Shown here one piece after another: positions 28,281 to 46,437 of a stretch of DNA of 64,000 nucleotides. The translations under genes were made by a program, and so were the position numbers. The notes below the pieces were generated by a model. The model made no database searches, was not told the origin of the DNA, and was given only the letters and a program-made list of their open reading frames with translations. Position 1 is the stretch's first letter. Each line of letters starts with the position of its first letter. Source of the stretch: Pseudoduganella violaceinigra DSM 15887 (GTDB lineage Bacteria; Pseudomonadota; Gammaproteobacteria; Burkholderiales; Burkholderiaceae_D); the NCBI RefSeq assembly GCF_000425385.1, contig NZ_KE384360.1:68196-132195 (forward strand), given 5' to 3'.

Positions 28281-28967
28281 ATGGCGCTCGTTGACCCACA
28301 ACCCCTGCATCCGGCCCTCTGGCTGGCATCCCAACTCAGCAAGGGAGCCACGTCCTGTGTGGATACCGGAATCCCCGTCCTCTCCCACCAGTTGCCCGGG
28401 GGAGGCTGGCCGACGGGCGTCCTGACGGAGTTGCTACTCCAGCAACCTGGCATCGGCGAATGGCGCTTGCTGCAAGCCGCGCTGGCCGGCCAAAAGCTGC
28501 CGGTGGCATTGCTGCAACCGCCCTATGCCCCGCAAACCCTGGGCCTGGACTTGCATTCCCAGCAACTGCTCTGGATCCGCAACACCGGCAAGGCGGCTGA
28601 CTGCCTGTGGGCTGCCGAGCAAATCCTGCGCAGCGGCAGTTGCGGCGCCGTGCTGTTGTGGCAACAGCAGATCCGCAATGAATCGCTGCGCCGCCTGCAT
28701 CTGGCTGCCCAGTGTGGCGAGGCCCTGTTCTTCCTGCTGCGGCCGATTGCCGCGGCCCAGGATTCCTCTCCCGCGCCGCTGCGGCTGGCACTGCGGCCCG
28801 CCGCTGGCGGCATCAATATCGAATTCATCAAGCGCCGGGGACCGCAGCGCGACACGCCGCTGTTCCTCCCATTAACCCCCACCCTGTTGCAACGCCATGC
28901 GTCTGTGGATCGCTCTCTACCTGCCCCGGCTACCGCTCGAAGTGTTCTGTCCGAACTGGTCGGATGA
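28281..28967 (+). CDS. imuA: Translesion synthesis-associated protein ImuA
   Basis: ImuA is a RecA/SulA-like partner of the ImuB-DnaE2 mutagenic polymerase complex made under SOS. The 228-residue product has the family pattern LSHQLPGGGWPTGVLTELL (degenerate Walker region) and LLWIRNTGKAADCLWAAEQ. It begins just after a LexA box and overlaps imuB by 71 bases in another frame. The classical third gene, dnaE2, is not adjacent but 9.5 kb away. Confidence 0.92.
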   Translation: MALVDPQPLHPALWLASQLSKGATSCVDTGIPVLSHQLPGGGWPTGVLTELLLQQPGIGEWRLLQAALAGQKLPVALLQPPYAPQTLGLDLHSQQLLWIRNTGKAADCLWAAEQILRSGSCGAVLLWQQQIRNESLRRLHLAAQCGEALFFLLRPIAAAQDSSPAPLRLALRPAAGGINIEFIKRRGPQRDTPLFLPLTPTLLQRHASVDRSLPAPATARSVLSELVG

Positions 28968-30363
28968 TCAGTGCAGCGTGGTGCTGGAACAGGAGGGCGT
29001 GCTGGCCGTCTCCTGCCTGGCCCACAGGATGGGCGTGCGGCCCGGCATGCGCCGCAGCGGCGCCCTGATGCTGGCGCCGGAAGCCCAGATGCACGAACGC
29101 GCGCCGCAGCAGGAGCGGGAAGCCCTGCAGGCCGTCGCCTTGGCCATGTTGCAATACACGCCCCAGGTGGCGCAAGGCGAGGGCGCCACCCTGCTGCTGG
29201 ACGTGGGCGCCAGCCTGCGCCTGTTCGGCGGCATCCGCCGCCTGTGCCGCCTGGTGCGGGACAGCCTGCAAAAGCTCGGCTTCAGCGGCGTGCTGGGCGT
29301 GGCGCCGACGGCGCGCGGCGCCTGGCTGCTGGCGCGCGCCGGCGGCGGCCGCACGCTCAAACTGGACAGCCTGCTGCGTCGCCTGCATCTGCTGCCGGTG
29401 GGCCTGTTGCCGCCGTTGCAGCGCCACCAGCGCTGGCTGGAGGGCATCGGCTGCCGCGGTATCGGCGATCTGGTGCGCCTGCCGCGCCCGGGCCTGCAGC
29501 GCCGCTGCGGCATCGAAGTGCTGGATATGCTCGATGCCGCGCAAGGCCTGGCGCCGGAAATGCACGAATGGATCGCGGCACCGCCCAGCTTCAAGGCCAG
29601 GCTGGAACTGTTCGGCCGCATCGAAAACACCGACCTGCTGCTGGCCGGCGCCTGCCGCCTGCTGCAACAGCTGACCGGCTGGCTGTGCGCCCACCAGTTC
29701 GCCGTTTCGCGCATCCGCCTGCTGCTCGAACATGAGCGCGGCCGCGAAGCCTGCCCGCCCACGCCGGTGGACGTGATGCTGGCCGAGCCCACCTGGCGCG
29801 ATGCGCATATCGTGCGCCTGTTGAAGGAGCGCTTGGCCAAGGTGGAACTCCCGGCGCCGGTGATCGGGCTGGCGCTGGAAGCGGCCCAGGTTGAAGCGAT
29901 GGCGCCGCTCAGCGATTCGCTGTTCCCCGAACCCGGCGGCAGCCCGCAGGAGCGCCAGCGCCTGGTCGAAGTGCTGGTGGCGCGCCTCGGCGCCGACAAT
30001 GTGTTGCAGCCTTACCCCAAGGCCGACTACCGGCCCGAGGTGGCCAACCGCTGGGTGCCCCTGCACGAGCCAGTGCGCCCGGCCGACGTGGCGGGCCAGT
30101 TGCCGCCGCGTCCCTTGCCGCGCCCGGCCTTCCTGCTGCCCAAGCCGATCCAGCTGCTGATGCGCGACCACCGGCCGTTCTATTGCTCGCCGCTGCGCAT
30201 GGTGTCCAGCGGCGAGCGCATCGAAGCCGGCTGGTGGAGCGACACGCAAAGCCGCGACTATTTCATCGCCGAGGGCGAAGACCATGCCTACTACTGGGTG
30301 TTCCGCGAGCGCACGCCCGGTACGGACGAAACGCGCTGGTTCCTGCATGGTTTGTTCGCCTAG
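28897..30363 (+). CDS. imuB: ImuB, Y-family polymerase-like mutasome hub
   Basis: ImuB is a catalytically inactive Y-family polymerase relative that bridges the beta clamp, ImuA and DnaE2. The 488-residue protein keeps the fold (LWIALYLPRLPLEVFCP, GATLLLDVGASLRLFGG, GVAPTARGAWLLARAGG, LEGIGCRGIGDLVRLPRPGL helix-hairpin-helix-like) but lacks the usual pair of acidic catalytic residues. The C-terminus (PIQLLMRDHRPFYCSPLRM...AYYWVFRE) is the domain common to ImuB proteins. It overlaps imuA by 71 bases. Confidence 0.93.
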   Translation: MRLWIALYLPRLPLEVFCPNWSDDQCSVVLEQEGVLAVSCLAHRMGVRPGMRRSGALMLAPEAQMHERAPQQEREALQAVALAMLQYTPQVAQGEGATLLLDVGASLRLFGGIRRLCRLVRDSLQKLGFSGVLGVAPTARGAWLLARAGGGRTLKLDSLLRRLHLLPVGLLPPLQRHQRWLEGIGCRGIGDLVRLPRPGLQRRCGIEVLDMLDAAQGLAPEMHEWIAAPPSFKARLELFGRIENTDLLLAGACRLLQQLTGWLCAHQFAVSRIRLLLEHERGREACPPTPVDVMLAEPTWRDAHIVRLLKERLAKVELPAPVIGLALEAAQVEAMAPLSDSLFPEPGGSPQERQRLVEVLVARLGADNVLQPYPKADYRPEVANRWVPLHEPVRPADVAGQLPPRPLPRPAFLLPKPIQLLMRDHRPFYCSPLRMVSSGERIEAGWWSDTQSRDYFIAEGEDHAYYWVFRERTPGTDETRWFLHGLFA

Positions 30364-33971: not shown

Positions 33972-35453
33972 ATGCGCAACACCACTACCATGTTCCTCGC
34001 CCTGGCCACCGCCGGCGTCGTCGGTGCCGGTGCAGCCATCGCTGTCCAGCATAGCCAGGCCATCGCCGCCCCAGTCGCCGCCCTTTCCGCCCCGGCCAAC
34101 GCGGCCCAGGGCGCCCCGGCGCCCGTGCCGGCACCGATGATTTCCTTGCCTGACTTCAGCGTCATCGCCTCGCGCAATGGTCCGGCGGTTGTCAATATCA
34201 GCACGGTCGGCAGCACCAAGGAAGCCAATTTCCGCGGCGGCGATGACGATGCCGACAACGACCCCTTCTTCGAATTCTTCCGCCGCTTCCAGGGCCCCGG
34301 CCAGCGCGGCCGCGGCGGCGCCGTGCCCACCCATGGCGTGGGCTCCGGCTTCATCGTCAGCGCCGACGGCATCATCCTAACCAATGCCCACGTGGTGCGC
34401 GACGCCAATGAAGTGACGGTCAAGCTGACCGACCGCCGGGAATTCCGCGCCAAGGTGCTGGGCTCCGACCCGAAAACCGATGTGGCCGTGCTGAAGATCG
34501 AAGCCAGGAACCTGCCGGTGGTGCCGCTGGGCCGCTCCACCGACGTGAAGGTGGGCGAGTGGGTGCTGGCCATCGGTTCGCCGTTCGGCCTGGAAAACAC
34601 CGTCACCGCCGGCGTGGTGAGCGCCAAGGGCCGTTCCCTGCCGGACGACTCCAACGTGCCCTTCATCCAGACCGACGTGGCGATCAACCCGGGCAACTCG
34701 GGCGGTCCGCTGTTCAACACCAAGGGCGAAGTGATCGGCATCAATTCGCAGATCTATAGCCAAAGCGGCGGCTACCAGGGCCTGTCCTTCTCGATCCCGA
34801 TCGATGTGGCGACCCGCGTGCGCGACCAGATCGTCTCGACCGGCAAGGTGGTGCATGCGCGCCTGGGCGTGATGGTGCAGGAAGTGAACCAGGGCTTTGC
34901 CGATTCCTTCGACCTGGAGTCGCCGGAAGGCGCGCTGGTGTCGAATGTGGAGCGCGGCGGCCCGGCGGAAAAACTCGGCCTGAAGGCGGGCGACGTGATC
35001 CGCAAGATGAACGGCCAGAAGATTATCGCCTCGGGCGACCTGCCGGCGCTGGTGAGCCTGGCCATGCCCGGTGATAAAGTGGAGCTTGAAGTCTGGCGCC
35101 AGGGGAAAAACGTTACGCTGGAAGGCAAGCTGGGCAATGCCGCCGACCGCAATGTGGCGGCGCTGAAGAACGACGAGGCGGCGGCCAAGCTGCGCCTCGG
35201 CCTGGCGCTGCGCCAGCTGGACCCGCAGGAACGGCGCGAATCGGGCCTGCCGTCCGGCCTGCTGGTCGAGGATGCCGGCGGCGCCGCCGCCAGCGCCGGC
35301 GTGCAGCCGGGCGATGTGCTGTTGTCGGTGAACGGCCGTCCGGTCAATTCCGTGAACGATGTGCGCGACCTCGTGGCAAAATCCAGCAAATCGGTCGCGC
35401 TGCTGATCCAGCGCGGCGAGGACCGCATCTTTATCCCGGTGCGCCTCGGTTAA
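33972..35453 (+). CDS. Do/DegP-family periplasmic serine protease
   Basis: The 493-residue HtrA/MucD/DegP-type protease has an N-terminal export signal (MRNTTTMFLALATAGVVGAG), the catalytic His in ILTNAHVV, Asp in DPKTDVAVLKI and Ser in GNSGGPLFN, followed by two PDZ domains (about 270-360 and 390-490). It degrades misfolded envelope proteins. A start at 33930 is possible but ATG 33972 has AGGAG behind it. The two-component genes follow after 25 bases, suggesting one operon. Confidence 0.95.
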   Translation: MRNTTTMFLALATAGVVGAGAAIAVQHSQAIAAPVAALSAPANAAQGAPAPVPAPMISLPDFSVIASRNGPAVVNISTVGSTKEANFRGGDDDADNDPFFEFFRRFQGPGQRGRGGAVPTHGVGSGFIVSADGIILTNAHVVRDANEVTVKLTDRREFRAKVLGSDPKTDVAVLKIEARNLPVVPLGRSTDVKVGEWVLAIGSPFGLENTVTAGVVSAKGRSLPDDSNVPFIQTDVAINPGNSGGPLFNTKGEVIGINSQIYSQSGGYQGLSFSIPIDVATRVRDQIVSTGKVVHARLGVMVQEVNQGFADSFDLESPEGALVSNVERGGPAEKLGLKAGDVIRKMNGQKIIASGDLPALVSLAMPGDKVELEVWRQGKNVTLEGKLGNAADRNVAALKNDEAAAKLRLGLALRQLDPQERRESGLPSGLLVEDAGGAAASAGVQPGDVLLSVNGRPVNSVNDVRDLVAKSSKSVALLIQRGEDRIFIPVRLG

Positions 35454-35478: not shown

Positions 35479-36138
35479 ATGCGCCTCCTGCTGGTAGAAG
35501 ACGACACCATGATCGGCGAGGTAGTGCTCGACCTGCTGCGGGCAGAGCACTACGCCGTCGACTGGGTCAAGGATGGCGCCATGGCCGATACGGCCCTGCA
35601 GACCCAGACCTACGACCTGGTGCTGCTGGACCTGGGCCTGCCCAAGAAGGACGGGCTGGAAGTGCTGCGCTCCATGCGCGCCCGCAAGGAACTGACCCCG
35701 GTGCTGGTGGCCACCGCGCGCGACGCCGTGGAGCAGCGCATCGCGGGGCTGGACGCGGGCGCCGACGACTATGTGCTCAAGCCCTACGACCTGGACGAGC
35801 TGCTGGCCCGCATCCGCGCCTTGCTGCGCCGCGCCGCCGGGCGCGCCGAGCCGGTGTTCGAGCACAAGGGCGTCTCGATCAACCCGCAGACGCGCGAGGT
35901 GATCGCCAACGGCCAGCCGGTCAACCTGTCGGCGCGCGAGTGGGCGGTGCTGGAAGCGCTGATCGCGCGCCCCGGCATCGTCTTGTCGCGCGCCCAGCTG
36001 GAAGAAAAGCTGTACAGCTGGAAGGATGAAGTCAATTCCAACGCGGTCGAAGTGTACATCCACGGCTTGCGCAAGAAACTGGGGGCGGAACTGATCCAGA
36101 ACGTGCGCGGCCTCGGCTACATGGTCCCGAAAGCATGA
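35479..36138 (+). CDS. OmpR-type response regulator, QseB/PmrA class
   Basis: The 219-residue protein has a receiver domain with phosphoacceptor D51 (DLVLLDLGLP), K in VLKPYDL, and an OmpR-type winged helix (SAREWAVLEALI, VYIHGLRKKL). It lies between htrA and the sensor kinase gene, which overlaps it by four bases (ATGA), so all three are probably made together and the regulator may control envelope-stress or polymyxin/quorum-type targets. Exact stimulus unknown. Confidence 0.93.
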   Translation: MRLLLVEDDTMIGEVVLDLLRAEHYAVDWVKDGAMADTALQTQTYDLVLLDLGLPKKDGLEVLRSMRARKELTPVLVATARDAVEQRIAGLDAGADDYVLKPYDLDELLARIRALLRRAAGRAEPVFEHKGVSINPQTREVIANGQPVNLSAREWAVLEALIARPGIVLSRAQLEEKLYSWKDEVNSNAVEVYIHGLRKKLGAELIQNVRGLGYMVPKA

Positions 36139-37472
36139 TGATGGCGGTGCCGAAGGTCAATGTCACGCACTCGCTGCGCGGGCGCCTGCTATGGTTCCTG
36201 CTGGCGGCCATCACCACGGCCGCCGTGGCGCAGGCCATGATCGCCTACAGTTCGGCGCTCAGCGACGCCGACCAGATCTTCGACTACCACATGCAGCAGA
36301 TGGCCATGTCGCTGCGCAGCAATACGCCGATGGCGGCCAGCCACAACACCGACCCCAACGATCCGGGCAACGACGAGATGGTGGTGCAGGTCTGGACGCC
36401 GGACGGCATCCAGGTCTTCCGCTCGCTGTCCCGGGCCGAGCTGCCGCAGCGCGCGGTGCTGGGCTTTTCCAATGTGCGCGCGAACGGCACGACCTACCGC
36501 GTGTTTTCGGCGCAGTCCGCCAACCAGACCATCCAGATCGCCCAGGACCTGGCCGTGCGCAAGCGCATGGCCGGCACGCTGGCGCTGCGCACCGTCGGCC
36601 CGATCGCGCTGATGGCGCCGGTGCTCATGGTGGTGGTGTGGTGGGTGGTCTCCGGCTCGCTGGCGCCGGTGGCGCGCGTGCAGCGGCAGCTGGCCCTGCG
36701 CAAGGCCGACGACCTGTCCGAGGTGTCCGACGCCGACCTGCCGGACGAAGTGCGGCCCCTGGTGCAGGAACTGAACCTGCTGTTCTCGCGCGTGCAGACG
36801 GCGTTCGAGGCGCAGCAGAACTTCGTCGCCGACGCGGCGCACGAGCTGCGCACGCCGCTGGCGGCGCTCAAGCTGCAGATCCTCAGCCTGGCGCGCGCCG
36901 ATTGCAGCGAGGCGCGCGAGGTGGCGATCGGCCGCCTGTCGGCCGGGGTGGAACGCGCCTCGCGCCTGGTGGAGCAGCTGCTGGTGCTGGCGCGCACCGA
37001 GGCCGCCGACGCCAAGCTGGAACCGGTCAGCCTGACCGAGCTGGCCAAGCGCAGCGTGGGCGATATGGCCGGCGCGGCGCAGGCGCGCGGCATCGACCTG
37101 GGACTGGCGCGGGCCGAGGAGGCCAGCGTGCAGGGCCAGGGCGACGCCCTGCTGATCCTGTTGCGCAACCTGGTCGACAACGCCGTCAAGTACACCCCGG
37201 CCGGCGGCATGGTCGACGTTTCGGTGCTGGCGGCGGCCGAGGGCCAGGGCGCGCGGCTGGTGGTGGAGGACAGCGGCCCCGGCATCGCGCCGGAAGAGCG
37301 CGAGCGCGTCTTCAACCGCTTTTACCGCGTGCCGGGCAGCGAAGCCCAGGGCAGCGGGCTGGGTCTGGCCATCATCCGCGCCATCGCCGAACGGCACGGC
37401 GCCACGTTAACGCTGGACGCTTCCGAGCGCCTGGGCGGCCTGCAGGTGACGGTGGAGTTTGCCTCGCGCTAG
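36135..37472 (+). CDS. Sensor histidine kinase, QseC/PmrB class
   Basis: The 445-residue kinase has an N-terminal membrane helix (LLWFLLAAITTAAVAQAMIAY), a periplasmic sensor domain (about 40-155), a second helix (LMAPVLMVVVWWVV), a HAMP region, the phosphorylation box DAAHELRTPLAALKLQI and the ATPase N, G1 and G2 boxes (NLVDNAVKYT, EDSGPGIAPEER, GSGLGLAII). All catalytic boxes are intact. Partner of the regulator just upstream. Confidence 0.93.
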   Translation: MMMAVPKVNVTHSLRGRLLWFLLAAITTAAVAQAMIAYSSALSDADQIFDYHMQQMAMSLRSNTPMAASHNTDPNDPGNDEMVVQVWTPDGIQVFRSLSRAELPQRAVLGFSNVRANGTTYRVFSAQSANQTIQIAQDLAVRKRMAGTLALRTVGPIALMAPVLMVVVWWVVSGSLAPVARVQRQLALRKADDLSEVSDADLPDEVRPLVQELNLLFSRVQTAFEAQQNFVADAAHELRTPLAALKLQILSLARADCSEAREVAIGRLSAGVERASRLVEQLLVLARTEAADAKLEPVSLTELAKRSVGDMAGAAQARGIDLGLARAEEASVQGQGDALLILLRNLVDNAVKYTPAGGMVDVSVLAAAEGQGARLVVEDSGPGIAPEERERVFNRFYRVPGSEAQGSGLGLAIIRAIAERHGATLTLDASERLGGLQVTVEFASR

Positions 37473-37501
37473 AATGTCGTTTTTGACAAGTGGAGCAGGG
37501 C

Positions 37502-38632
37502 ATGCAGAAGATCGGTTTCTCGGGCACTTTGGATCCCATCACCAATGGCCACATGTGGGTCATTGGCGAAGCGCGTTCGCTGGCGGACGAAGTGGTCGTA
37601 TTCCTGTCCGAGAACTCCACCAAGGCGCCCAAATTCACCGCCGAGGAGCGCAAGGGCATCGTGCTGGCCAGCTGCGCCGAGCGGGGCTGGGGCAATGTCA
37701 GCGTGCAGATCGTGAAAAGCGAATACACGGCGCGCGTGGCCAAGCGCAACGGCGTCGACTACCTGATCCGCGGCATCCGCAGCACTGCCGATTTCGACTA
37801 TGAAAACCTGATCCAGCAAACCAATGTGGAAGTGATCGGCGGCGCCAAGACGCTGTTCGTGATGCCGCCGCGCGACCTGGGATCGGTCAGCTCCAGCTTC
37901 GTGAAAGCGCTGGAAGGCCCGGTGGGCTGGAACTGGACCATGAAGAAATTCGTGCCGGCCCCGGCCTACGAGGCCTGGATCCTGGCCTGGCTGCGCAAGG
38001 AATGGGACAGCCTGTGGCGCGAGCGTCCGCATTCGGCCGACTGGTTCGAGCGCCTGACCGGCGAGCAGGCTTACGGCGGCGCCGATCGCCATTACCACAA
38101 CCTCGACCATCTGGTGCACGGGCTGGCGGAAATCCGCGCCTGGGCCGCCAATACCGGCGCCTCGGCGGCCGATGTGGCGCTGGTGAAGGCCGCCTTCTGG
38201 TTCCACGATGCCGTGTATGCCCATGGCGCCGGCGATGTGACGAACGAGGAAGCCAGCGCCCGCCTGTGGCTGGGCAGCGGGCTGGAGCCGGACGCCGTGC
38301 GCGCCGACGAAGTGGCGACCCTGGTCCGCACCACCGACCACTTCCAGGGCGGCGCCATGGTGCATCCCCTGAAGGACACCATGCTGTCGGTGGACCTGGC
38401 CATCCTCGGCCAGGAAGCCGAGGTCTACCAGGCCTATGCGCGCGGCATCCGCGCCGAATACGCCCATGTGCCGGAAGAGCGCTACAACAGCCAGCGGGCC
38501 CAGGTCCTGGCCCACCTGCGGGGCAAGGCCGAGGCGGGCACGCTGTTCGCGGACCCCTTCTTCACCGATAACTACACGGCCGCGGCCATTGCGAACATGG
38601 GCGCGGAACTGGCCCTAATTGCCGGCCGTTAA
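37502..38632 (+). CDS. Fusion of CoaD-like adenylyltransferase and HD-domain phosphohydrolase
   Basis: The 376-residue protein has two parts. Residues about 1-160 are a phosphopantetheine adenylyltransferase-like domain: GTLDPITNGHMWVIG (TxGH nucleotide site), STKAPKFTAEER, YLIRGIRSTADFDYE and SVSSSFVKALEG, all intact. Residues about 165-376 are an HD-superfamily metal-dependent phosphohydrolase of the COG4339 type, with YHNLDHL, WFHDAVY and LSVDLAILG supplying the H-HD-D metal ligands. CoaD is normally a separate ~160-residue enzyme of coenzyme A synthesis; another coaD probably exists elsewhere. Start ATG 37502 lies seven bases after GGAG. Role of the fusion is unknown. Confidence 0.82.
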   Translation: MQKIGFSGTLDPITNGHMWVIGEARSLADEVVVFLSENSTKAPKFTAEERKGIVLASCAERGWGNVSVQIVKSEYTARVAKRNGVDYLIRGIRSTADFDYENLIQQTNVEVIGGAKTLFVMPPRDLGSVSSSFVKALEGPVGWNWTMKKFVPAPAYEAWILAWLRKEWDSLWRERPHSADWFERLTGEQAYGGADRHYHNLDHLVHGLAEIRAWAANTGASAADVALVKAAFWFHDAVYAHGAGDVTNEEASARLWLGSGLEPDAVRADEVATLVRTTDHFQGGAMVHPLKDTMLSVDLAILGQEAEVYQAYARGIRAEYAHVPEERYNSQRAQVLAHLRGKAEAGTLFADPFFTDNYTAAAIANMGAELALIAGR

Positions 38633-38806
38633 TGGACGCGCCAGGTCGAGCCAGAACAGCTCGACCTCCTCCAGCGCATTGGCCTTGGCGCATTTTTCGG
38701 AAACGGCACTGAGGATGAATTCCTCCGCCGACATCTGTTCTATCGGGGCCCATTTGGCGATTGCGGAAATAACGTCGCCGGCTAAGTGGATCGTCATTGC
38801 AGCCAT
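38615..38806 (-). CDS. Small ribbon-helix-helix-like protein
   Basis: The 63-residue product MAAMTIHLAGDVISAIAKWA... has a short beta strand (TIHLA) and two helices (VISAIAKWA and EEFILSAVSEKCAKA), the layout of CopG/Arc ribbon-helix-helix proteins, though the match is weak. GGAGGAGG lies four bases before its ATG but is paired in a hairpin (38811-38861). Its 3' end overlaps the CoaD-HD fusion gene by 18 bases, convergently. No toxin gene is adjacent, so an antitoxin role is doubtful. Confidence 0.6.
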   Translation of the reverse strand: MAAMTIHLAGDVISAIAKWAPIEQMSAEEFILSAVSEKCAKANALEEVELFWLDLARPLTAGN

Positions 38807-38810
38807 AGCA

Positions 38811-38861
38811 CCTCCTCCGAGTGGGTTGTGATTCCACCTTGCATCATTTGCCCGGAGGAGG
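38811..38861 (-). promoter_or_regulatory. Hairpin sequestering the ribosome site of the RHH-like gene
   Basis: On the minus strand CCTCCTCCG (38861-38853) is a perfect nine-base complement of CGGAGGAGG (38819-38811), the ribosome binding site of the small gene starting at 38806. The loop holds a second small stem (GTGG/CCAC). Folding would block translation, so this is a candidate riboregulator or autoregulatory site. Confidence 0.5.
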
Positions 38862-38996
38862 CTTTGCGGTATATCAAAGCGATTCAGAACTTCAGCAGCA
38901 GGCGTGCGAAGTCGCCCACACGTTCTCGTACCTGAAGCGGCGCCGACGTTCATTCCGCACCATGCCCGGTTCAAACGTGTCGTGCTCTGCCCCAAC

Positions 38997-39776: not shown

Positions 39777-39827
39777 CGGCGCAGGATACAACAGTGTGGC
39801 GCAGGGCGCCGGCGGTGGTGTAGAATG

Positions 39828-39843
39828 CTGTATGGGTATACAG
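39828..39843 (+). promoter_or_regulatory. LexA box overlapping the dnaE2 start
   Basis: CTGTATGGGTATACAG is a CTGT-N8-ACAG LexA operator. The dnaE2 ATG (39832) lies inside it, and TAGAAT (39821-39826) just upstream could be the -10. If so the message would be nearly leaderless. Confidence 0.85.
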
Positions 39844-42800
39844 TTATTGCGCGCCGGGCTGCCCGCCTATGCGGAGCTGTTTTGCCTGTCAAACTTTTCA
39901 TTTTTGCATGGCGCCTCCCATTCGGAAGAACTGGTGGAGCGGGCGATCAAGCTCGGCTACAGTGCGCTGGCGATCACGGACGAATGCTCGCTGGCCGGTG
40001 TGGTGCGGGCACACGCGGCGGCCAGGGAGCGTGGCCTGCAATTGCTGATCGGGGCCCATTTCCACCTGACCCATGCCGACGGCAGCCCGGCGCTCTCGCT
40101 GCTGGCGCTGGCCACCAACCGCAATGGCTACGGCAACCTGTCGGAAATGATCACCCTCGGCCGCATGCGCGCCGACAAGGGCAGCTACCAGCTGCACCCC
40201 GACGATTTCGCCCAGCCCCCGCCCGAACGCGAACATTTGCGCGGGCTGCCCGATTGCCTGCTGCTCCTGCTGCCGGAATACCCGGCCGAGGTGGAACGCC
40301 TGCACCGGCAGGCGGCATGGATGGCCGCCACTTTTGGCGAGCGCAGCTGGATCGGCTTGACCATGCTGGGCCGCGCCTTCGATGAGGCGCACGACGCCGC
40401 GATCGAGGAAGTCGCGCTGCAGCATGGCTTGCCGGTGGTCGCTGCCGGCCACGTGTGCATGCACGTGCGTTCGCGCAAGCCCCTGCACGATACCCTCACG
40501 GCGGTGAGGCTGGGCAAACCCGTCCAGGAGTGCGGCTATGCGCTGGGGCAGAACGCCGAGCAGCATCTGCGCTCGCGGCTGCGCCTGGCGAACGTCTACC
40601 CGGCGCCGGTGCTGGCGGAGACCATGCGCATCGCCGGCATGTGCCGTTTCTCGCTGGAGGAGCTGCGCTACGAATATCCGCATGAGCTGATCCCGCCGGG
40701 CCATACGCCGGCCAGTTTCCTGCGCCAGGAAACCTATAAGGGCGCCGAGGGGCGCTACCCGCACGGCATCCCGCCCGCGGTGCAGGCGCAGATCGAGCAG
40801 GAGCTGGAGCTGGTGAAGGCGCTGGAATATGAATACTTCTTCCTGACCGTGTACGACATTGTTCGCTATGCGCGCTCGGTCGGCATCCTGTGCCAGGGGC
40901 GCGGATCGGCCGCCAACTCCGCCGTCTGCTATTGCCTGGGCGTGACCTCGGTCGACCCCATCCGCGGCAACAGCGTCGTAGGGCGCTTCATGTCGATCGA
41001 GCGCAAGGAGCCGCCGGACATCGACGTCGACTTCGAGCACCAGCGGCGCGAAGAGGTGATCCAGTACATCTACGAAAAGTATGGCCGCCACCGTACGGCC
41101 CTGGCGGCCACCGTCATCTGCTACCGCACCAAGAGCGCATTGCGCGACAGCGGCAAGGCGCTCGGCGTGGACCTGGAGATCGTCGAAAAGGTCGCCAAGT
41201 CGCACCGCTGGTTCGACCGCAAGCAGGAATTGATGGAGCGCTTCGCCGAGTGCGGGCTCGATCCCGATTCGCCGGTGGCGCACCAGTGGGCCCACCTGGC
41301 GCTGCAGATGCTCAGCTTCCCGCGCCATTTGTCGCAGCACGTGGGCGGCTTCGTCATTTCGCAGGACAAGCTTTCGCGCCTGGTGCCGATCGAGAACGCT
41401 GCGATGGAGGACCGCAGCGTCATCCAGTGGGACAAGGACGACCTGGAAGAACTGGGCCTGCTGAAAGTGGACGTGCTGGCGCTGGGCATGCTGACTGCCA
41501 TGCGCCGTACTTTCGACCTGATCTCGCAGCGCTATCAACTACCGTTCGGCATGACCAGTGTGCCGCCGGAAGACGACGCGACGTATGACATGATCTGCCA
41601 GGCCGATACCATCGGCGTGTTCCAGATTGAATCGCGCGCGCAAATGAGTATGCTGCCGCGCCTCAAGCCGCGCAGGTTCTACGACCTGGTGATCGAGGTG
41701 GCCATCGTACGGCCCGGCCCGATCCAGGGCGGCATGGTGCACCCATATTTGCAGCGGCGCATGGGGAAGGTGCCGGTCACTTATCCGGATGGGCTCGAGA
41801 AAGCGCTTGGCCGCACCCTGGGCATTCCGATCTTCCAGGAGCAGGTGATGCAGGTGGTGATTGACGGTGCCGGCTTTACGCCGGGCGAAGCGGACCAGCT
41901 GCGGCGTTCGATGGCGGCCTGGAAGCGCAAGGGCGGTTTGGAAAAGTATCAGGAGCGCATTGTCAGCGGCATGATAAAGCGCGGCTTGGGCGAGGAGTTT
42001 GCGCTGCAGATCTGCCAGCAGATCCAGGGCTTCGGCGAATACGGCTTCCCCGAGTCGCATGCGGCGAGTTTTGCGCTGTTGACGTACGCGAGTTCCTGGC
42101 TCAAGTGCCATGAGCCGGCGGCTTTTCTGTGCGCTTTGTTGAATAGCCTGCCGATGGGCTTCTACAGCGCGTCGCAGCTGGTGCAGGACGCGAAGCAGCA
42201 TGGCATCGAAGTGCGGGCAGTGGATGTCACGATCAGCGCCTGGGAATCGTCGCTGGAAGAAGTGGAGGAGGCCGCACCGGCGCCCATGCAGCCGCTTGGG
42301 CGCGATGTGACGCCGGACGAATTCCTTGCGGCGTTGTCGGCCCAGGGCCAGCGCCGGCAAGCCGCCGTGCGGCTGGGCATGTCGCGGCTGTACGGCATGC
42401 GCGGGGACGCGGCTGCGCGCATCATGGCCGCGCGTGCAGTGCGGCCCTTCGCCAGCGTGGCCGACCTGGCGCGGCGCGCCGACCTCAATCGCCACGACCT
42501 CCAGGTGCTGGCCGGCGGCAATGCCTTGCATGCGCTGGCAGGCAACCGCAGGCAGGCGCTGTGGGACGCGGCAGGTGCTGTGCCCGACAAGGACTTGCTG
42601 CGCCCGACCGAAGTGGAAGAGGAAACCCCGCAGCTGGTTCCGCCGACCGAAGGCGAGGAAATCGTCGGCGACTACCGCGCGCAGGGCTTGACGCTGGGGC
42701 GCCATCCGTTGGCGCTGTTGCGGCCGGCGCTCCTGGCCAAGCGTTTCCTGCCGGCCGAGGTGCTCAACACCTTCAGCAACAATCAGCTGGCGCGCGGCGC

Positions 42801-43065
42801 CGGCATCGTCACCGGCCGCCAGCGCCCCGGCACGGCAAAGGGGGTCTTGTTCGTCACCATTGAAGACGAAACCGGCTACGTCAACGTGATCGTCTGGCCC
42901 GACCTGGTGGCGCAATACCGGCGCGAAGTGCTGGGCTCCACGCTGCTTGGGGTGTACGGCGTGTGGCAGCAGGAGGGCATCGTGCGCCACCTGGTGGCGC
43001 GCCGCCTGGTCGACCTGTCGCACCTGCTGGGCCGATTGCCGACCGCCAGCCGTGATTTTCAATGA
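39832..43065 (+). CDS. dnaE2: Error-prone DNA polymerase DnaE2 (ImuC)
   Basis: DnaE2 is the catalytic subunit of the SOS mutagenic polymerase complex with ImuA and ImuB. The 1077-residue C-family polymerase has an N-terminal PHP domain (AELFCLSNFSFLHGASH, YSALAITDECSLAGVV), the polymerase core with PPDIDVDFEHQRREEVIQYI containing the catalytic acidic residues, GAGFTPGEADQLRRSMAAWK, EYGFPESHAASFALLTYAS and a C-terminal OB fold. The likely start ATG 39832 lies in a LexA box; a TTG at 39847 is an alternative. Lipoprotein genes follow after 35 bases and may be co-transcribed. Confidence 0.95.
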   Translation: MGIQLLRAGLPAYAELFCLSNFSFLHGASHSEELVERAIKLGYSALAITDECSLAGVVRAHAAARERGLQLLIGAHFHLTHADGSPALSLLALATNRNGYGNLSEMITLGRMRADKGSYQLHPDDFAQPPPEREHLRGLPDCLLLLLPEYPAEVERLHRQAAWMAATFGERSWIGLTMLGRAFDEAHDAAIEEVALQHGLPVVAAGHVCMHVRSRKPLHDTLTAVRLGKPVQECGYALGQNAEQHLRSRLRLANVYPAPVLAETMRIAGMCRFSLEELRYEYPHELIPPGHTPASFLRQETYKGAEGRYPHGIPPAVQAQIEQELELVKALEYEYFFLTVYDIVRYARSVGILCQGRGSAANSAVCYCLGVTSVDPIRGNSVVGRFMSIERKEPPDIDVDFEHQRREEVIQYIYEKYGRHRTALAATVICYRTKSALRDSGKALGVDLEIVEKVAKSHRWFDRKQELMERFAECGLDPDSPVAHQWAHLALQMLSFPRHLSQHVGGFVISQDKLSRLVPIENAAMEDRSVIQWDKDDLEELGLLKVDVLALGMLTAMRRTFDLISQRYQLPFGMTSVPPEDDATYDMICQADTIGVFQIESRAQMSMLPRLKPRRFYDLVIEVAIVRPGPIQGGMVHPYLQRRMGKVPVTYPDGLEKALGRTLGIPIFQEQVMQVVIDGAGFTPGEADQLRRSMAAWKRKGGLEKYQERIVSGMIKRGLGEEFALQICQQIQGFGEYGFPESHAASFALLTYASSWLKCHEPAAFLCALLNSLPMGFYSASQLVQDAKQHGIEVRAVDVTISAWESSLEEVEEAAPAPMQPLGRDVTPDEFLAALSAQGQRRQAAVRLGMSRLYGMRGDAAARIMAARAVRPFASVADLARRADLNRHDLQVLAGGNALHALAGNRRQALWDAAGAVPDKDLLRPTEVEEETPQLVPPTEGEEIVGDYRAQGLTLGRHPLALLRPALLAKRFLPAEVLNTFSNNQLARGAGIVTGRQRPGTAKGVLFVTIEDETGYVNVIVWPDLVAQYRREVLGSTLLGVYGVWQQEGIVRHLVARRLVDLSHLLGRLPTASRDFQ

Positions 43066-43100
43066 GAATGTGCGCGGGTTCCGGGTGTTACCATGCCGGC

Positions 43101-43991
43101 ATGAATTTAGCTATCAAGAAAATATCGATTTTGCTCCCTGTGGCTGTCCTTGCAACTGCCTGCCAACGCGGCGAAAAAGCTGCCCCGCCATCGGTCATAC
43201 AAGTTAAAACGCCAGTGGCCGCGCCACAGGAAGTGGCCGGAGCACCCGCTGCGCCGGTGGATCCGGAAGAAATCCGCATGATGGAGCTGATGCACGTCAT
43301 CTATGGAACTGCCGCCAATACGCCCTTGATTGTCGATCTGCCGGACTACGACAAGCGCAGCGAAAAGAGCAGCTATCGCATCACCCCTCTCAGCATGCAC
43401 GGCATTGGAACGGACCGCGTGGCCCTGGTGGCGAGCGCGAACTACGCGCACGACGATAATCCCAGTCACGGCCAGCCCGGTTTGTTGAATGCCTATGTGC
43501 TGCAAAAACAGGACGGCAAATGGAAAGTGGAGCGTCGCTTTGAAAACGTCGATGCAATGGGGACGTGGGGCAAGCTGGGCACTGTCGCCTGGGTCGAACT
43601 GGGGCCGGGACAGCCGGGTTTCGTGATCGAGTGGGGCGGGACCTGGCAAGGCAATACCGTCCAGTATATGTCGGTGTTTGATCTCGGCGACCCGAAGCTG
43701 CATGACCTGGCAAAGAAAGTCGGGCTGGTCGGCTCCGATAACGGCGGCGATTGTGACGAGCGGCGACATCGCTGCTGGAGCGTTGAAGGTAAATGGCGCT
43801 TTGAGCGCAAGACGCAGCAACCCTACGACGATCTGGTGTTCGATTTCAGCGGATATACCGAGTCCCGGCCCGAAGATTCCGCCGAAACGGTCGCACGCAC
43901 CCGCACTGAGGTGAGCAACACAGCGCGATACGCATTCCGCAGCGGGGAATACGTCCTTGCCAGCGGCGAACATTCCGTTCCCAATCCGTGA
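43101..43991 (+). CDS. Lipoprotein A of a tandem family
   Basis: The 296-residue protein has a lipoprotein signal (IKKISILLPVAVLATAC; lipobox ATAC). The mature part contains the shared family pattern: MMELMHVIYG, LLNAYVLQKQDGKWKVERR, GTWGKLGTVAW, GQPGFVIEWGGTWQG, then the Cys pair C...CWSVEGKWRFE, YDDLVFDFSGY and the end SGEYVLASGE. No known domain is recognised. It is the first of four related genes (43101-46437) placed directly after dnaE2. Confidence 0.8.
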   Translation: MNLAIKKISILLPVAVLATACQRGEKAAPPSVIQVKTPVAAPQEVAGAPAAPVDPEEIRMMELMHVIYGTAANTPLIVDLPDYDKRSEKSSYRITPLSMHGIGTDRVALVASANYAHDDNPSHGQPGLLNAYVLQKQDGKWKVERRFENVDAMGTWGKLGTVAWVELGPGQPGFVIEWGGTWQGNTVQYMSVFDLGDPKLHDLAKKVGLVGSDNGGDCDERRHRCWSVEGKWRFERKTQQPYDDLVFDFSGYTESRPEDSAETVARTRTEVSNTARYAFRSGEYVLASGEHSVPNP

Positions 43992-43996
43992 AATAT

Positions 43997-44875
43997 ATGA
44001 AACCTGGCCAGACCAAACTGACGCCGCTGCTTGGCGCGGCACTACTCCTCGCTGCCTGCTCCAAACAAGAAGCGCCGCATGCCCCCGCCAAACCTGATCC
44101 TGCGCCAGTGCCAGCGCTTGCGCAAGCCAAGGCCGCTGGCAGCGGCAGCCTGCCGAGCATGATGGACCTGATGCGCGTCGTCTATGGACGCACGGAGGGC
44201 GACCACGTCATCGCCACCTTTCGAAACGAGGAGGCTCCTCTCGTGCGGGAGCGCTTTCGTCTCGAACCAGTCAGCATGCGTGCACTTGGCGCTGACCGTG
44301 TGGCCCTGGTCGCAAATGGGGTTCTTGACGAAATCCGGGATCCGAAATACGAAAATGCCGGTCGCTTGAGCGCCTACCTGTTGCAGAAGCAGGATGGGGA
44401 ATGGACAGTTGAACGCAAGTTCGAGAACGCCTCCAGCTCGGGCACTTTCGGGCAGCTGGGTAACGTCAGCTGGCTGGACCTTGGTGCGGGAAAGCCGGGT
44501 TTCGGCATCGAGAGTACTTATACGCCGGATGGTCTCGAAATACGGCAAATTTCGCTGTTCGACCTGGCCGCTCCACGTATGAGAAATATGTCGATCTTTA
44601 TGCGCTCGCTCGCATCGGACAACGAAAAGATATGTGACGCAGCAAAGCCGGAATGCTGGAGTATCAAAGGGACGTGGCGTTTCGAGCGCCAGCCGCAGCA
44701 GGTATACGACGATGTGGTGGTCGATTACGTCGGCTATGTCGAGACCAGGCCAAACAACGCGCCGGAATCGGAGCCCCGCAGCCGCAGCGAGGTCAATTCC
44801 ACCCTGCGCTATACCTATCGGCATGGCGAATATTATCTGGTCAGCGGCGAGCTGCCGTCGGTGCCGGGGCTTTGA
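43997..44875 (+). CDS. Lipoprotein B of the tandem family
   Basis: This paralogue of lipoprotein A (292 residues) has the lipobox in GAALLLAAC and repeats the core pattern: LMRVVYG, GRLSAYLLQKQDGEWTVERK, GKPGFGIEST, C.....ECWSIKGTWRFE, YDDVVVDYVGY and HGEYYLVSGE. A GTG at 43988 overlaps the previous stop (GTGA) and would add three residues; ATG 43997 gives a cleaner signal peptide. The GGTWQG loop is lost (STYTPDG), so this copy is the most divergent. Confidence 0.78.
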   Translation: MKPGQTKLTPLLGAALLLAACSKQEAPHAPAKPDPAPVPALAQAKAAGSGSLPSMMDLMRVVYGRTEGDHVIATFRNEEAPLVRERFRLEPVSMRALGADRVALVANGVLDEIRDPKYENAGRLSAYLLQKQDGEWTVERKFENASSSGTFGQLGNVSWLDLGAGKPGFGIESTYTPDGLEIRQISLFDLAAPRMRNMSIFMRSLASDNEKICDAAKPECWSIKGTWRFERQPQQVYDDVVVDYVGYVETRPNNAPESEPRSRSEVNSTLRYTYRHGEYYLVSGELPSVPGL

Positions 44876-45533
44876 TGATCGATACGAATAAGCTTGCGCT
44901 GCTTGGCGTGGCGCTGCTCCTCGCGGCATGCGGCAGGAACGAAACACCCCAGCCGGCTGCTGTCAACCCCGCCCCTGCAAAAGCCTCCGCGGCCGTAACG
45001 AAGGCGCCGGCCGCTTCAAATGCCGCCAGCTGCTGAATGCCTACGTACTGCGCCGGCAAGGCGAGCAATGGAAAGTCGAGGCGAGCCATGAAAACATTGC
45101 CTCCCTGGGCTCCTTCGGGCTATTCGGCGAGGTGACGTGGGTCTCGCTGAGAAGCGGGCGGCCAGGTTTCACCGTGCGGCATGGCGGCACCTGGCAAGGC
45201 CAGTCGATCAGCTACCTGTCCGTATTCGGTCTGGCGGATCGCTCCATGCACGACCTGACGAAGGGCGTGCCGGTATTTTCGACCAGCGGCAACTGCGGCA
45301 GCGACAGTCCCTCATGCTGGTCGGTTGAGGGCAAGTGGCAGTTCGAGCAGCGCCAAGGCGCATCGTATGATGACCTGGTGCTGCGCTTCTCCGGGTACGC
45401 TAAAAGTAGTGCCGAGGAGGCACCGGAAAAGTCGTCGCGCGAGGGGAAGACCTTGCGCGGCATGGCACGCTACAAATTCGACGGCAGCCAGTATGTATTG
45501 ATTGAGGGCGAAAATATTGTCCCGGAAATTTGA
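44875..45533 (+). pseudogene. Broken lipoprotein C of the tandem family
   Basis: An ATG at 44875, overlapping the stop of lipoprotein B, opens a normal lipoprotein start (KLALLGVALLLAAC; 53 codons) that runs into a stop at 45034-45036. The rest of the family sequence resumes in another frame from about 45031: LLNAYVLRRQGEQWKVE, GRPGFTVRHGGTWQGQ, CGSDSPSCWSVEGKWQFE, YDDLVLRFSGY, YVLIEGE, ending at 45533. About 85-90 codons present in the intact copies are missing at the junction, so an out-of-frame deletion inactivated it. Confidence 0.82.
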
Positions 45534-45555
45534 GTTGAACCCTACAAGGATTGCG

Positions 45556-46437
45556 ATGAAGAACACGAAAAAGCTGATGCTGCTTGGTGCGGCGTTGATC
45601 CTGTCGGCCTGCGCCAAAAAGGAAGTTCCGCCGGCCGTTGCAGAACCCGTGCCCGCGCAGCCGGTGGCGGCCGAGGCGAAAAAGCGGGTCAGCGCCGAGA
45701 CGGTGCGCATGATGGAGCTGCTGCGCGCGGTGTACGGCAACGAAGGGGCGCACGAGGATTATCTGGTGGCGCAACTGCCGGACCATGAAGAAGGGCACAA
45801 TGCGACAGGATCATATCGCCTTGAACCAGTCGCCATGCACGAACTGCCGGATGGCCGGGTAGCCGTTGTTGCCAACGCCCAGCAGCTGGATGAACAAGGC
45901 GAAGCCATGGCCTACCATGCCACCTCCGGCTTGTTGAGCGCATACATCCTGCGCAAAGACGGCGGCAAATGGACAGTCGAAGCGCGTCACGAAAATATTG
46001 CCGAAGTCGGTTCGAACGGCGTGTTTGGCCAGGTGCAGTGGGTGTCGCTGGGCCAGGGCAAGCCTGGCTTTATGGTGCGGCATGGCGGCACCTGGCAGGG
46101 CGCCTCTGTCGAATTCGTTTCCATCTTTGACCTGGCGGATGGCCCCATGCACGACCTGGCCCACAGCCTGTCGCTGTCATCGGACAATGAGGGCGCCTGC
46201 GGCGAAGAAACCTCGCACTGCTGGTCGATTGAAGGCAAACTGCAGTTCGAGAAGCGCGAAGGCGCTGCGTTCGACGATGTGGTGCTGCGCTTTACCGGGT
46301 TTGAGGAAAACAGGGGCGACGATGCGCCGAAAAATCAGGCGCGCCAGCACGAGGAGCGGAACGGGATGGCGCGCTATAAATTCGACGGCCAAAGCTATGT
46401 GCTGATTGAAGGTGAGAATATTGTCCCGGGCGTTTGA
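45556..46437 (+). CDS. Lipoprotein D of the tandem family
   Basis: The 293-residue product has lipobox LSAC (KLMLLGAALILSAC) and the complete family core: MMELLRAVYG, LLSAYILRKDGGKWTVEA, GQVQWVSLGQGKPGFMVRHG, C....SHCWSIEGKLQFE, FDDVVLRFTGF and QSYVLIEGENIVPG. Its 3' part is very close to the broken copy C, including the last ~28 bases, so C and D are the most recent duplicates. AAGGA precedes ATG 45556. Confidence 0.82.
   Translation: MKNTKKLMLLGAALILSACAKKEVPPAVAEPVPAQPVAAEAKKRVSAETVRMMELLRAVYGNEGAHEDYLVAQLPDHEEGHNATGSYRLEPVAMHELPDGRVAVVANAQQLDEQGEAMAYHATSGLLSAYILRKDGGKWTVEARHENIAEVGSNGVFGQVQWVSLGQGKPGFMVRHGGTWQGASVEFVSIFDLADGPMHDLAHSLSLSSDNEGACGEETSHCWSIEGKLQFEKREGAAFDDVVLRFTGFEENRGDDAPKNQARQHEERNGMARYKFDGQSYVLIEGENIVPGV

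Follow-up and report, generated by a model that had tools for sequence, protein, structure and literature searches.

A fusion of CoaD with an HD phosphohydrolase in Pseudoduganella violaceinigra suggests a wider CoaD/CoaE/HD set in bacteria, plasmids and large phages

Why would an enzyme that builds coenzyme A (CoA) be joined to a phosphohydrolase in one polypeptide? The question is raised by a gene of the soil-type bacterium Pseudoduganella violaceinigra DSM 15887, which lies in the 64,000-nucleotide stretch of DNA analysed here (contig NZ_KE384360.1, positions 68,196 to 132,195; the window, whose first letter is position 1 below) and encodes a phosphopantetheine adenylyltransferase (PPAT, CoaD) followed by an HD-superfamily phosphohydrolase. 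An earlier reading made from the letters of the window (the sequence-only reading) had described two complete domains in one continuous frame, and the CoaD-HD fusion is now confirmed as genuine, with two intact domains joined in frame. The frame runs from an ATG at 37502 to the stop codon ending at 38632 (the mechanically called open reading frame (ORF) is in frame with it and begins earlier, with the GTG at 37490), TIGR01510 and phrog_19425 match its two halves, the active sites of both are conserved, and the motifs that had been listed (TNGH, LIRGIRS, VSSSFVK, HNLDH, FHD and a last D) all lie where they had been placed. A scan for relatives with one genome per species found 106, of which the best 80 were kept (the 80 loci below); these come from Duganella, Pseudoduganella, Massilia, Rugamonas, Janthinobacterium, Undibacterium and metagenome-assembled genomes and are 62–94% identical. 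Both domains share a single open frame in 80/80 of these loci and in 35/35 of another locus set, of which the window itself is one, and these intact fused frames rule out an artefact or a frameshift between the domains. The frameshift or assembly error that the sequence-only reading had named as its possible undoing is thus absent among 80 relatives.

The CoaD half scores 110.2 bits with TIGR01510 (NCBIfam), near its cut-off of 103.3, and the canonical CoaD copy of the same genome scores 182.3 bits. Its PPAT positions T9, H17, K41, R90, R93, Y100, E101, N108, S130 and S131 are invariant in 43/43 aligned fusion proteins, and we take the roles of these residues (the T, the H, the K, the two R, the Y, the E, the N and the SS pair) to be those of E. 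coli CoaD; with four HD positions added, 14 listed active-site positions are without variation across the 43. AlphaFold2 modelled the whole protein with a mean predicted local distance difference test score (pLDDT) of 86.4 and a predicted template modelling score (pTM) of 0.84, with residues 100–110 largely below 50, and its first half superposes on 6ccq with a Z of 20.1 over 154 aligned residues (root-mean-square deviation 2.2), as expected of the PPAT fold. NadD models gave the window protein 12.2 and 11.7 bits against cut-offs of 167 and 150 and do not identify it as NadD. Judged by these features the PPAT half is intact and apparently active, and a degenerate paralogue is ruled out by the retained active-site residues. 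The half resembles canonical bacterial CoaD (TIGR01510) in its above-cut-off score, active-site residues and fold, but canonical CoaD is normally a free enzyme of ~160–180 aa, whereas the CoaD of the window is extended by a hydrolase and coexists with a canonical copy. This separate coaD, which was missing from the earlier picture, lies on a different contig of the same genome, and its product is 28% identical to the CoaD half of the fusion.

The HD half retains the ligands of an H..HD..D site, with H199, H203, H235 and D236 present in 43/43 fusions and D298 in 42/43, and the PHROG family phrog_19425 ('phosphohydrolase') matches it with an E of 4e-18; it appears to be an intact H..HD..D phosphohydrolase domain, apparently active. 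No Pfam family lies above its cut-off for the HD half (none at E ≤ 10 for the window protein, none at E ≤ 1 for 29 HD halves), and no NCBIfam family matches it, YqeK models included. Since the HD-type families of Pfam are profile-specific, the absent match makes only membership of a Pfam family less likely. Modelled alone (pLDDT 88.9, pTM 0.86), the HD half aligns with class I cyclic-nucleotide phosphodiesterases, which have the HD fold, over ~203 residues at 12–15% identity, the Foldseek E-values being weak (best 0.011); a profile of the HD family likewise gave weak matches to PDB sequences (3dto, E 0.0045; 2pq7, E 0.58). A function as class I cyclic-nucleotide phosphodiesterase was rejected, and the half is not filed with these enzymes, because they are structural neighbours only and there is no PDEase_I Pfam match. 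Stand-alone HD proteins, those of phrog_19425 among them, belong to the same HD family as the C-terminal half of the window protein and differ from it in standing alone. One such member, on a Gloeothece plasmid (L183:3974-4618; L numbers denote loci and G numbers genomes), is annotated as 'N-methyl-D-aspartate receptor NMDAR2C subunit', a database misnomer.

Within a sample of 195 genomes of the same family, the HD family is present in 60. Forty of these (the genome of the window included) score E ≤ 7.1e-43 with frames of 377–506 aa; 35 were confirmed as fusions by domain search, and the other five (G353, G332, G305, G386, G319) were called fusions from their frame length of 385–412 aa. The remaining 20 have weaker matches (E 1e-10 to 1e-20; frames of 204–340 aa) and are read as stand-alone HD genes. 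The wider scans are samples with cut-offs that distant fusions would escape: among 199 other genomes of the order none comes near the fusion score (best E 4.5e-34, CoaD part only), and 273 other genomes of the class contain one match at E ≤ 1e-30, again to the CoaD part only. A canonical CoaD match (best E ≤ 1e-93) and a second match occur together in 39 of the 40 fusion genomes, the exception (G238) being 68% complete. Because canonical CoaD is also present in the fusion genomes, the CoaD-HD protein is an accessory PPAT, and its role as a replacement of the normal CoaD is ruled out. Two CoaD matches are also found in five fusion-free genomes (G211, G255, G270, G337 and G358).

CoaD and CoaE catalyse the two steps from 4'-phosphopantetheine to CoA, and a second CoaE homolog (CoaE2) accompanies some of the fusions. 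Directly upstream of the fusion, the 80 loci contain a homolog of the window's histidine kinase in 72 cases, a CoaE homolog in four (L111, L113, L114 and L115) and neither in four; the corresponding counts in the other 35-locus set are 23, four and eight, some of its contigs being short. The start and stop of the CoaE2 and fusion genes overlap as ATGA in L113, L115 and L161, the two genes overlap by position in L111, and a gap of 1 base separates them in L114. CoaE2 of L113 (91.6 bits), L115 (99.8) and L161 (97.3) passes TIGR00152, the dephospho-CoA kinase model, at a cut-off of 65.55 bits. A second CoaE (E ≤ 5.4e-34) is present in eight genomes of the 195-genome sample and lies directly beside the fusion in 8/8; the CoaE2-adjacent fusions belong to basal relatives. 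Two weaker CoaE matches occur in G254, which is without a fusion. A TetR-like regulator gene is divergent to the CoaE2/CoaD-HD genes in L115 and L161, and a similar one lies next to, or two genes from, a stand-alone HD gene in L147 and L159.

The same domains are arranged differently on plasmids. The plasmids of four Variovorax strains encode a 405-aa CoaE-HD fusion (100% identical as protein) with an HD domain of the same family. Its CoaE part scores 65.7 bits with TIGR00152 (cut-off 65.55) and 81.4 with Pfam CoaE (cut-off 27), and the end of the fusion gene is overlapped by 4 bp by a gene for a 172-aa CoaD. In one of them, plasmid 2 of Variovorax sp. SRS16 (L181), type I-E CRISPR genes and a gene for DpdB are found a few kb away from the CoaE-HD/CoaD pair. 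Pseudomonas plasmids match with the HD part only, among the matches listed (30 of 125), and the P. silesiensis locus (L182) is a stand-alone HD gene. A viral scan with the CoaE-HD protein as query found no relative, and PADLOC gave no match for three proteins.

Four phages encode CoaD-HD fusions, all of which retain the active-site residues of both halves: LR756500.1, of 462 kb (L194, the same DNA as L205/L217 of IMG/VR); IMG/VR 3300033067_001111 (L207), in which the fusion gene is overlapped by a CoaE gene (TAATG); 3300012232_000010 (L215, also IMG/VR); and 3300009285_006704 / 3300025117_000031 (L258/L262), which are 99.7% identical over 6.5 kb and are counted as one. A separate HD gene abuts or overlaps CoaD in L208, and an HD gene overlaps a CoaD-CoaE fusion in L212. 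Viral CoaE-CoaD fusions are present in L227 (= L243) and L233, and CoaE adjoins CoaD in L196, L235, L236, L239, L240, L242, L244, L277 and L278. In 7/7 proteins tested the CoaD part passes TIGR01510. With TIGR00152 the CoaE parts of L207 (56.9) and L196 (36.7) stay below the cut-off, and with Pfam CoaE they exceed it. Nucleotide enzymes also lie nearby, namely a NAMPT gene (Pfam NAMPT_N and NAPRTase) upstream of CoaD-HD in L215, with one small gene between the two, and an IMPDH/GMP-reductase gene downstream of CoaD-HD in L258. Human CoA synthase, COASY, which we take to be a PPAT-CoaE fusion, joins the last two CoA steps and is similar in content to L227, L233 and L212; COASY is without an HD domain, and the window protein without a CoaE part. 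The CoaD frame of L196 (2655-3663) is cut short near an opposite-strand ORF read as a GIY-YIG endonuclease, perhaps an intron, and Prevotella Lak phages (code 15; L195:4001-4492 and others) have a plain 163-aa CoaD followed by an ATP-grasp-like ORF.

These arrangements suggest that CoaD-HD is one form of a wider CoaD/CoaE/HD set in bacteria, plasmids and large phages. The strength of the linkage was counted on non-seed loci, since the seeds biased some scans, with near-duplicates retained. CoaE occurs in 10 of 34 such viral CoaD loci, and HD in two (L212 and L215), within the fetched stretch; viral CoaE-CoaD linkage is thus frequent, and HD joins in a minority of viral loci, then by fusion or overlap. 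Among the loci examined, the only enzymes fused to the HD family of the window are CoaD and CoaE, and a look for further partners yielded five long frames (L251, L255, L260, L265 and L268) without a Pfam domain. Being fused to both, the HD domain is linked through two kinds of fusion to the final two steps of CoA synthesis, and the different partner of CoaE-HD implies at least two fusion events. That the HD family is repeatedly joined or adjacent to CoaD and CoaE is seen in the sequences themselves, and its coupling to the CoA pathway seems probable. The chemistry around dephospho-CoA that the sequence-only reading had proposed gains support from CoaE being part of the same set; its domains and its unusual pairing stand as well, and what it lacked, besides the separate coaD, was the CoaD/CoaE/HD set itself. 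The two-way or sequential reaction that it suggested would be one option among several, and the nearest published precedent, NadD-YqeK, is for a role in clean-up.

The usual view of CoA synthesis is that of a closed pathway with five steps, and a metal-dependent hydrolase linked to the final two would point to a clean-up, turnover or restoring function beyond it. Such a link would also narrow the candidate substrates of the HD family to a few, for a family that is uncharacterised and has members with misleading database names, and the phage loci show that some phages carry CoA genes together with a hydrolase. The genes coaD and coaE are reported to be abundant among the viral genes of snow viromes, in passages that mention neither an HD domain nor a fusion (PMC11097641). 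A search of open-licence papers turned up no description of CoaD-HD proteins, CoaE-HD proteins or the set of three domains, and a word search of the main texts of PMC9503650, PMC7824862 and PMC12908238 gave no mention of CoaD or CoaE; the sequence-only reading, which knew of no described function, agrees with an open-licence literature in which no characterised enzyme of such build was found.

We hypothesize that CoaD-HD is a bifunctional accessory enzyme of the CoA pathway that carries its own clean-up hydrolase, a reading to which we give a probability of roughly 40%. The PPAT half would adenylylate 4'-phosphopantetheine, or a close analogue, to dephospho-CoA, CoaE2, where present, would phosphorylate this product, and the HD half would hydrolyse an unwanted nucleotide of the pathway, the likeliest targets being wrongly made dinucleotides, for instance dephospho-CoA analogues of the non-adenine or deoxy kind. 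A permissive adenylyltransferase would in this way come with a hydrolase to clean up after it, much like NadD with YqeK. The NadD-YqeK protein of a minimal mycoplasma, as described in passages of PMC9426524, is the closest likeness. It too joins an HD phosphohydrolase to a cofactor adenylyltransferase, whose fold class is the same, and its unspecific NadD part makes wrong dinucleotides, which YqeK hydrolyses. NadD-YqeK serves NAD, whereas the window fusion would serve CoA, and the HD half of the window protein has no match to a YqeK model; YqeK itself has two extra metal-binding histidines, according to a passage of PMC8177086.

Several observations weigh against this clean-up function. A mutant of the YqeK site grew normally, with no growth defect, in the part of PMC9426524 that reports it. 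The genome of the window has only one CoaE, at C1:691173, and no CoaE2 beside the fusion. Most of the examined HD genes of the family are not near CoaD or CoaE: among 27 non-seed viral HD loci CoaD is found in two (L258 and L262, one phage) and CoaE in none, and CoaD or CoaE is found in 0/15 bacterial stand-alone HD loci and in 0/8 HD loci from the phage collection (of which L203 reads as host chromosome). In Stenotrophomonas phage RAS14 (L201) a stand-alone HD gene directly follows the ribonucleotide reductase genes. In trees of the CoaD halves (66 rows) and the HD halves (67 rows), the bacterial fusions form one clade with full support and a long stem, and approximately unbiased (AU) tests did not reject a single origin of all CoaD-HD fusions (p 0.47 for CoaD, on the 62 rows that remained once four long phage rows had been removed; p 0.43 for HD, with 67 rows). 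The CoaD tree even improves over the free search when the bacterial fusions are held together with L194 or with L207. Because one origin is unrejected and the held-together trees are better, a single event may account for the CoaD-HD fusions of both phages and bacteria; a separate origin for each CoaD-HD fusion is not supported, the AU tests being compatible with one.

The position of the RAS14 gene fits a general nucleotide hydrolase, and the HD half could be such a hydrolase of nucleotide pools (acting on deoxynucleoside monophosphates, for example), fused to CoaD only for stability or co-expression. Rhizobium phage RHph_I42 (L197), in which a stand-alone HD gene lies a few genes after dCMP deaminase, and the many stand-alone HD genes away from CoaD argue in the same direction, as do HD enzymes such as YfbR, which are phosphatases of deoxynucleoside monophosphates in a passage of PMC8177086. 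However, the HD domain is fused to CoaE as well as to CoaD, which are consecutive steps of one pathway, and the separate HD gene of L208 and that of L212 overlap CoaD. We regard a generic nucleotidase as rather unlikely.

A role in CoA turnover, as concrete a proposal as clean-up, is unlikely. The HD half would here remove the 3'-phosphate of CoA to give dephospho-CoA, which a reversible CoaD would convert to 4'-phosphopantetheine and ATP, and the fusion would set the balance between CoA and dephospho-CoA, with CoaE2 as the opposing kinase. The HD enzyme MESH1 dephosphorylates CoA at the 3' position in a passage of PMC13221220, and the activity of CoaE2 would be the exact reverse; but MESH1 belongs to another HD family, and a kinase and a phosphatase in one operon would run a futile cycle unless regulated.

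It is quite unlikely that the set serves to rebuild CoA, with CoaD and CoaE remaking it from 4'-phosphopantetheine after it has been split and the HD domain clearing 3',5'-ADP, a capacity from which phages would benefit and which some bacteria would have retained. To our knowledge no bacterial defence depletes CoA, most viral CoaD loci are without HD, and the 3',5'-ADP phosphatase activity of the HD domain is putative. For rebuilding speak the CoaE genes at viral CoaD loci, adjacent or fused in many, the NAMPT gene close to the fusion of L215, and the described parallel of phage NAD+ reconstitution (in passages of PMC12846349), which is alike in being a small phage set that remakes a nucleotide cofactor and differs in that the cofactor here is CoA, not NAD+, and that any tie to defence is hypothetical here. 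The more specific proposal that the CoaD-HD gene is a retained piece of a phage-borne CoA reconstitution module, in which the HD domain destroys 3',5'-ADP or a CoA-derived signal, is very unlikely; if true, it would imply an unknown bacterial defence acting through CoA, as others act via NAD+. Highly improbable is a function at RNA ends, where the PPAT half would cap pppA-RNA with phosphopantetheine, such caps being removed or edited by the HD half: CoaE requires a free adenosine 3'-OH, which is unavailable in RNA, and capping needs no accessory PPAT. Passages of PMC10761072 report that pppA-RNA can be given a phosphopantetheine cap in vitro by the PPAT of E. coli but also that ATP strongly inhibits the capping.

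In the window the fusion gene is preceded by genes for an HtrA-like protease, a response regulator and a histidine kinase, and this gene order recurs among the relatives; their coordinates are collected in Table 1 with those of the fusion.

Table 1. Features of the CoaD-HD locus, in window coordinates
Feature	Coordinates	Strand	Remarks
CoaD-HD fusion gene	37502..38632	+	376 aa plus stop; single continuous frame; fused in 80/80 relative loci
GGAG, probable ribosome-binding site	37492..37495	+	from sequence, before the ATG at 37502
CoaD/PPAT half	37502..37996	+	~residues 1-165; TIGR01510 match at residues 6-156; Z ~20 to solved PPATs
HD phosphohydrolase half	37997..38629	+	~residues 166-376; phrog_19425 E 4e-18; Z 16-17 to class I phosphodiesterases
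TNGH adenylyltransferase motif (H17)	37541..37552	+	residues 14-17
LIRGIRS with R90 and R93	37763..37783	+	residues 88-94
VSSSFVK motif	37886..37906	+	residues 129-135
HNLDH, with H199 and H203 of the HD site	38096..38110	+	residues 199-203; kept in 43/43
FHD, with H235 and D236 of the HD site	38201..38209	+	residues 234-236; kept in 43/43
D298, last HD ligand	38393..38395	+	kept in 42/43; N in L057
Histidine kinase gene, directly upstream of the fusion	36135..37472	+	named by eye
Response regulator gene	35479..36138	+	named by eye
HtrA-like protease gene	33972..35453	+	named by eye

Other neighbours of the fusion in related genomes, read from sequence with no family search, are a gene for the metabolite-repair enzyme Nnr, divergent to it in L162, L163 and L165, and a NudC-like gene convergent to it in L108. 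In L149, L150, L151 and L154 the gene next downstream of the stand-alone HD gene, on the same strand, is read by eye as that of a family III CoA-transferase, and recR lies upstream in L150, L151 and L154. Within the window, an ImuB-type polymerase gene (28897-30363) and a DnaE2-type polymerase gene (39796-43065), both named by eye, flank the protease, two-component and CoaD-HD genes, and a row of similar lipoprotein-like genes at 43062-46437 is read as tandem duplicates. A small ORF on the reverse strand (38615-38995) overlaps the last bases of the fusion gene and is possibly a real small gene.
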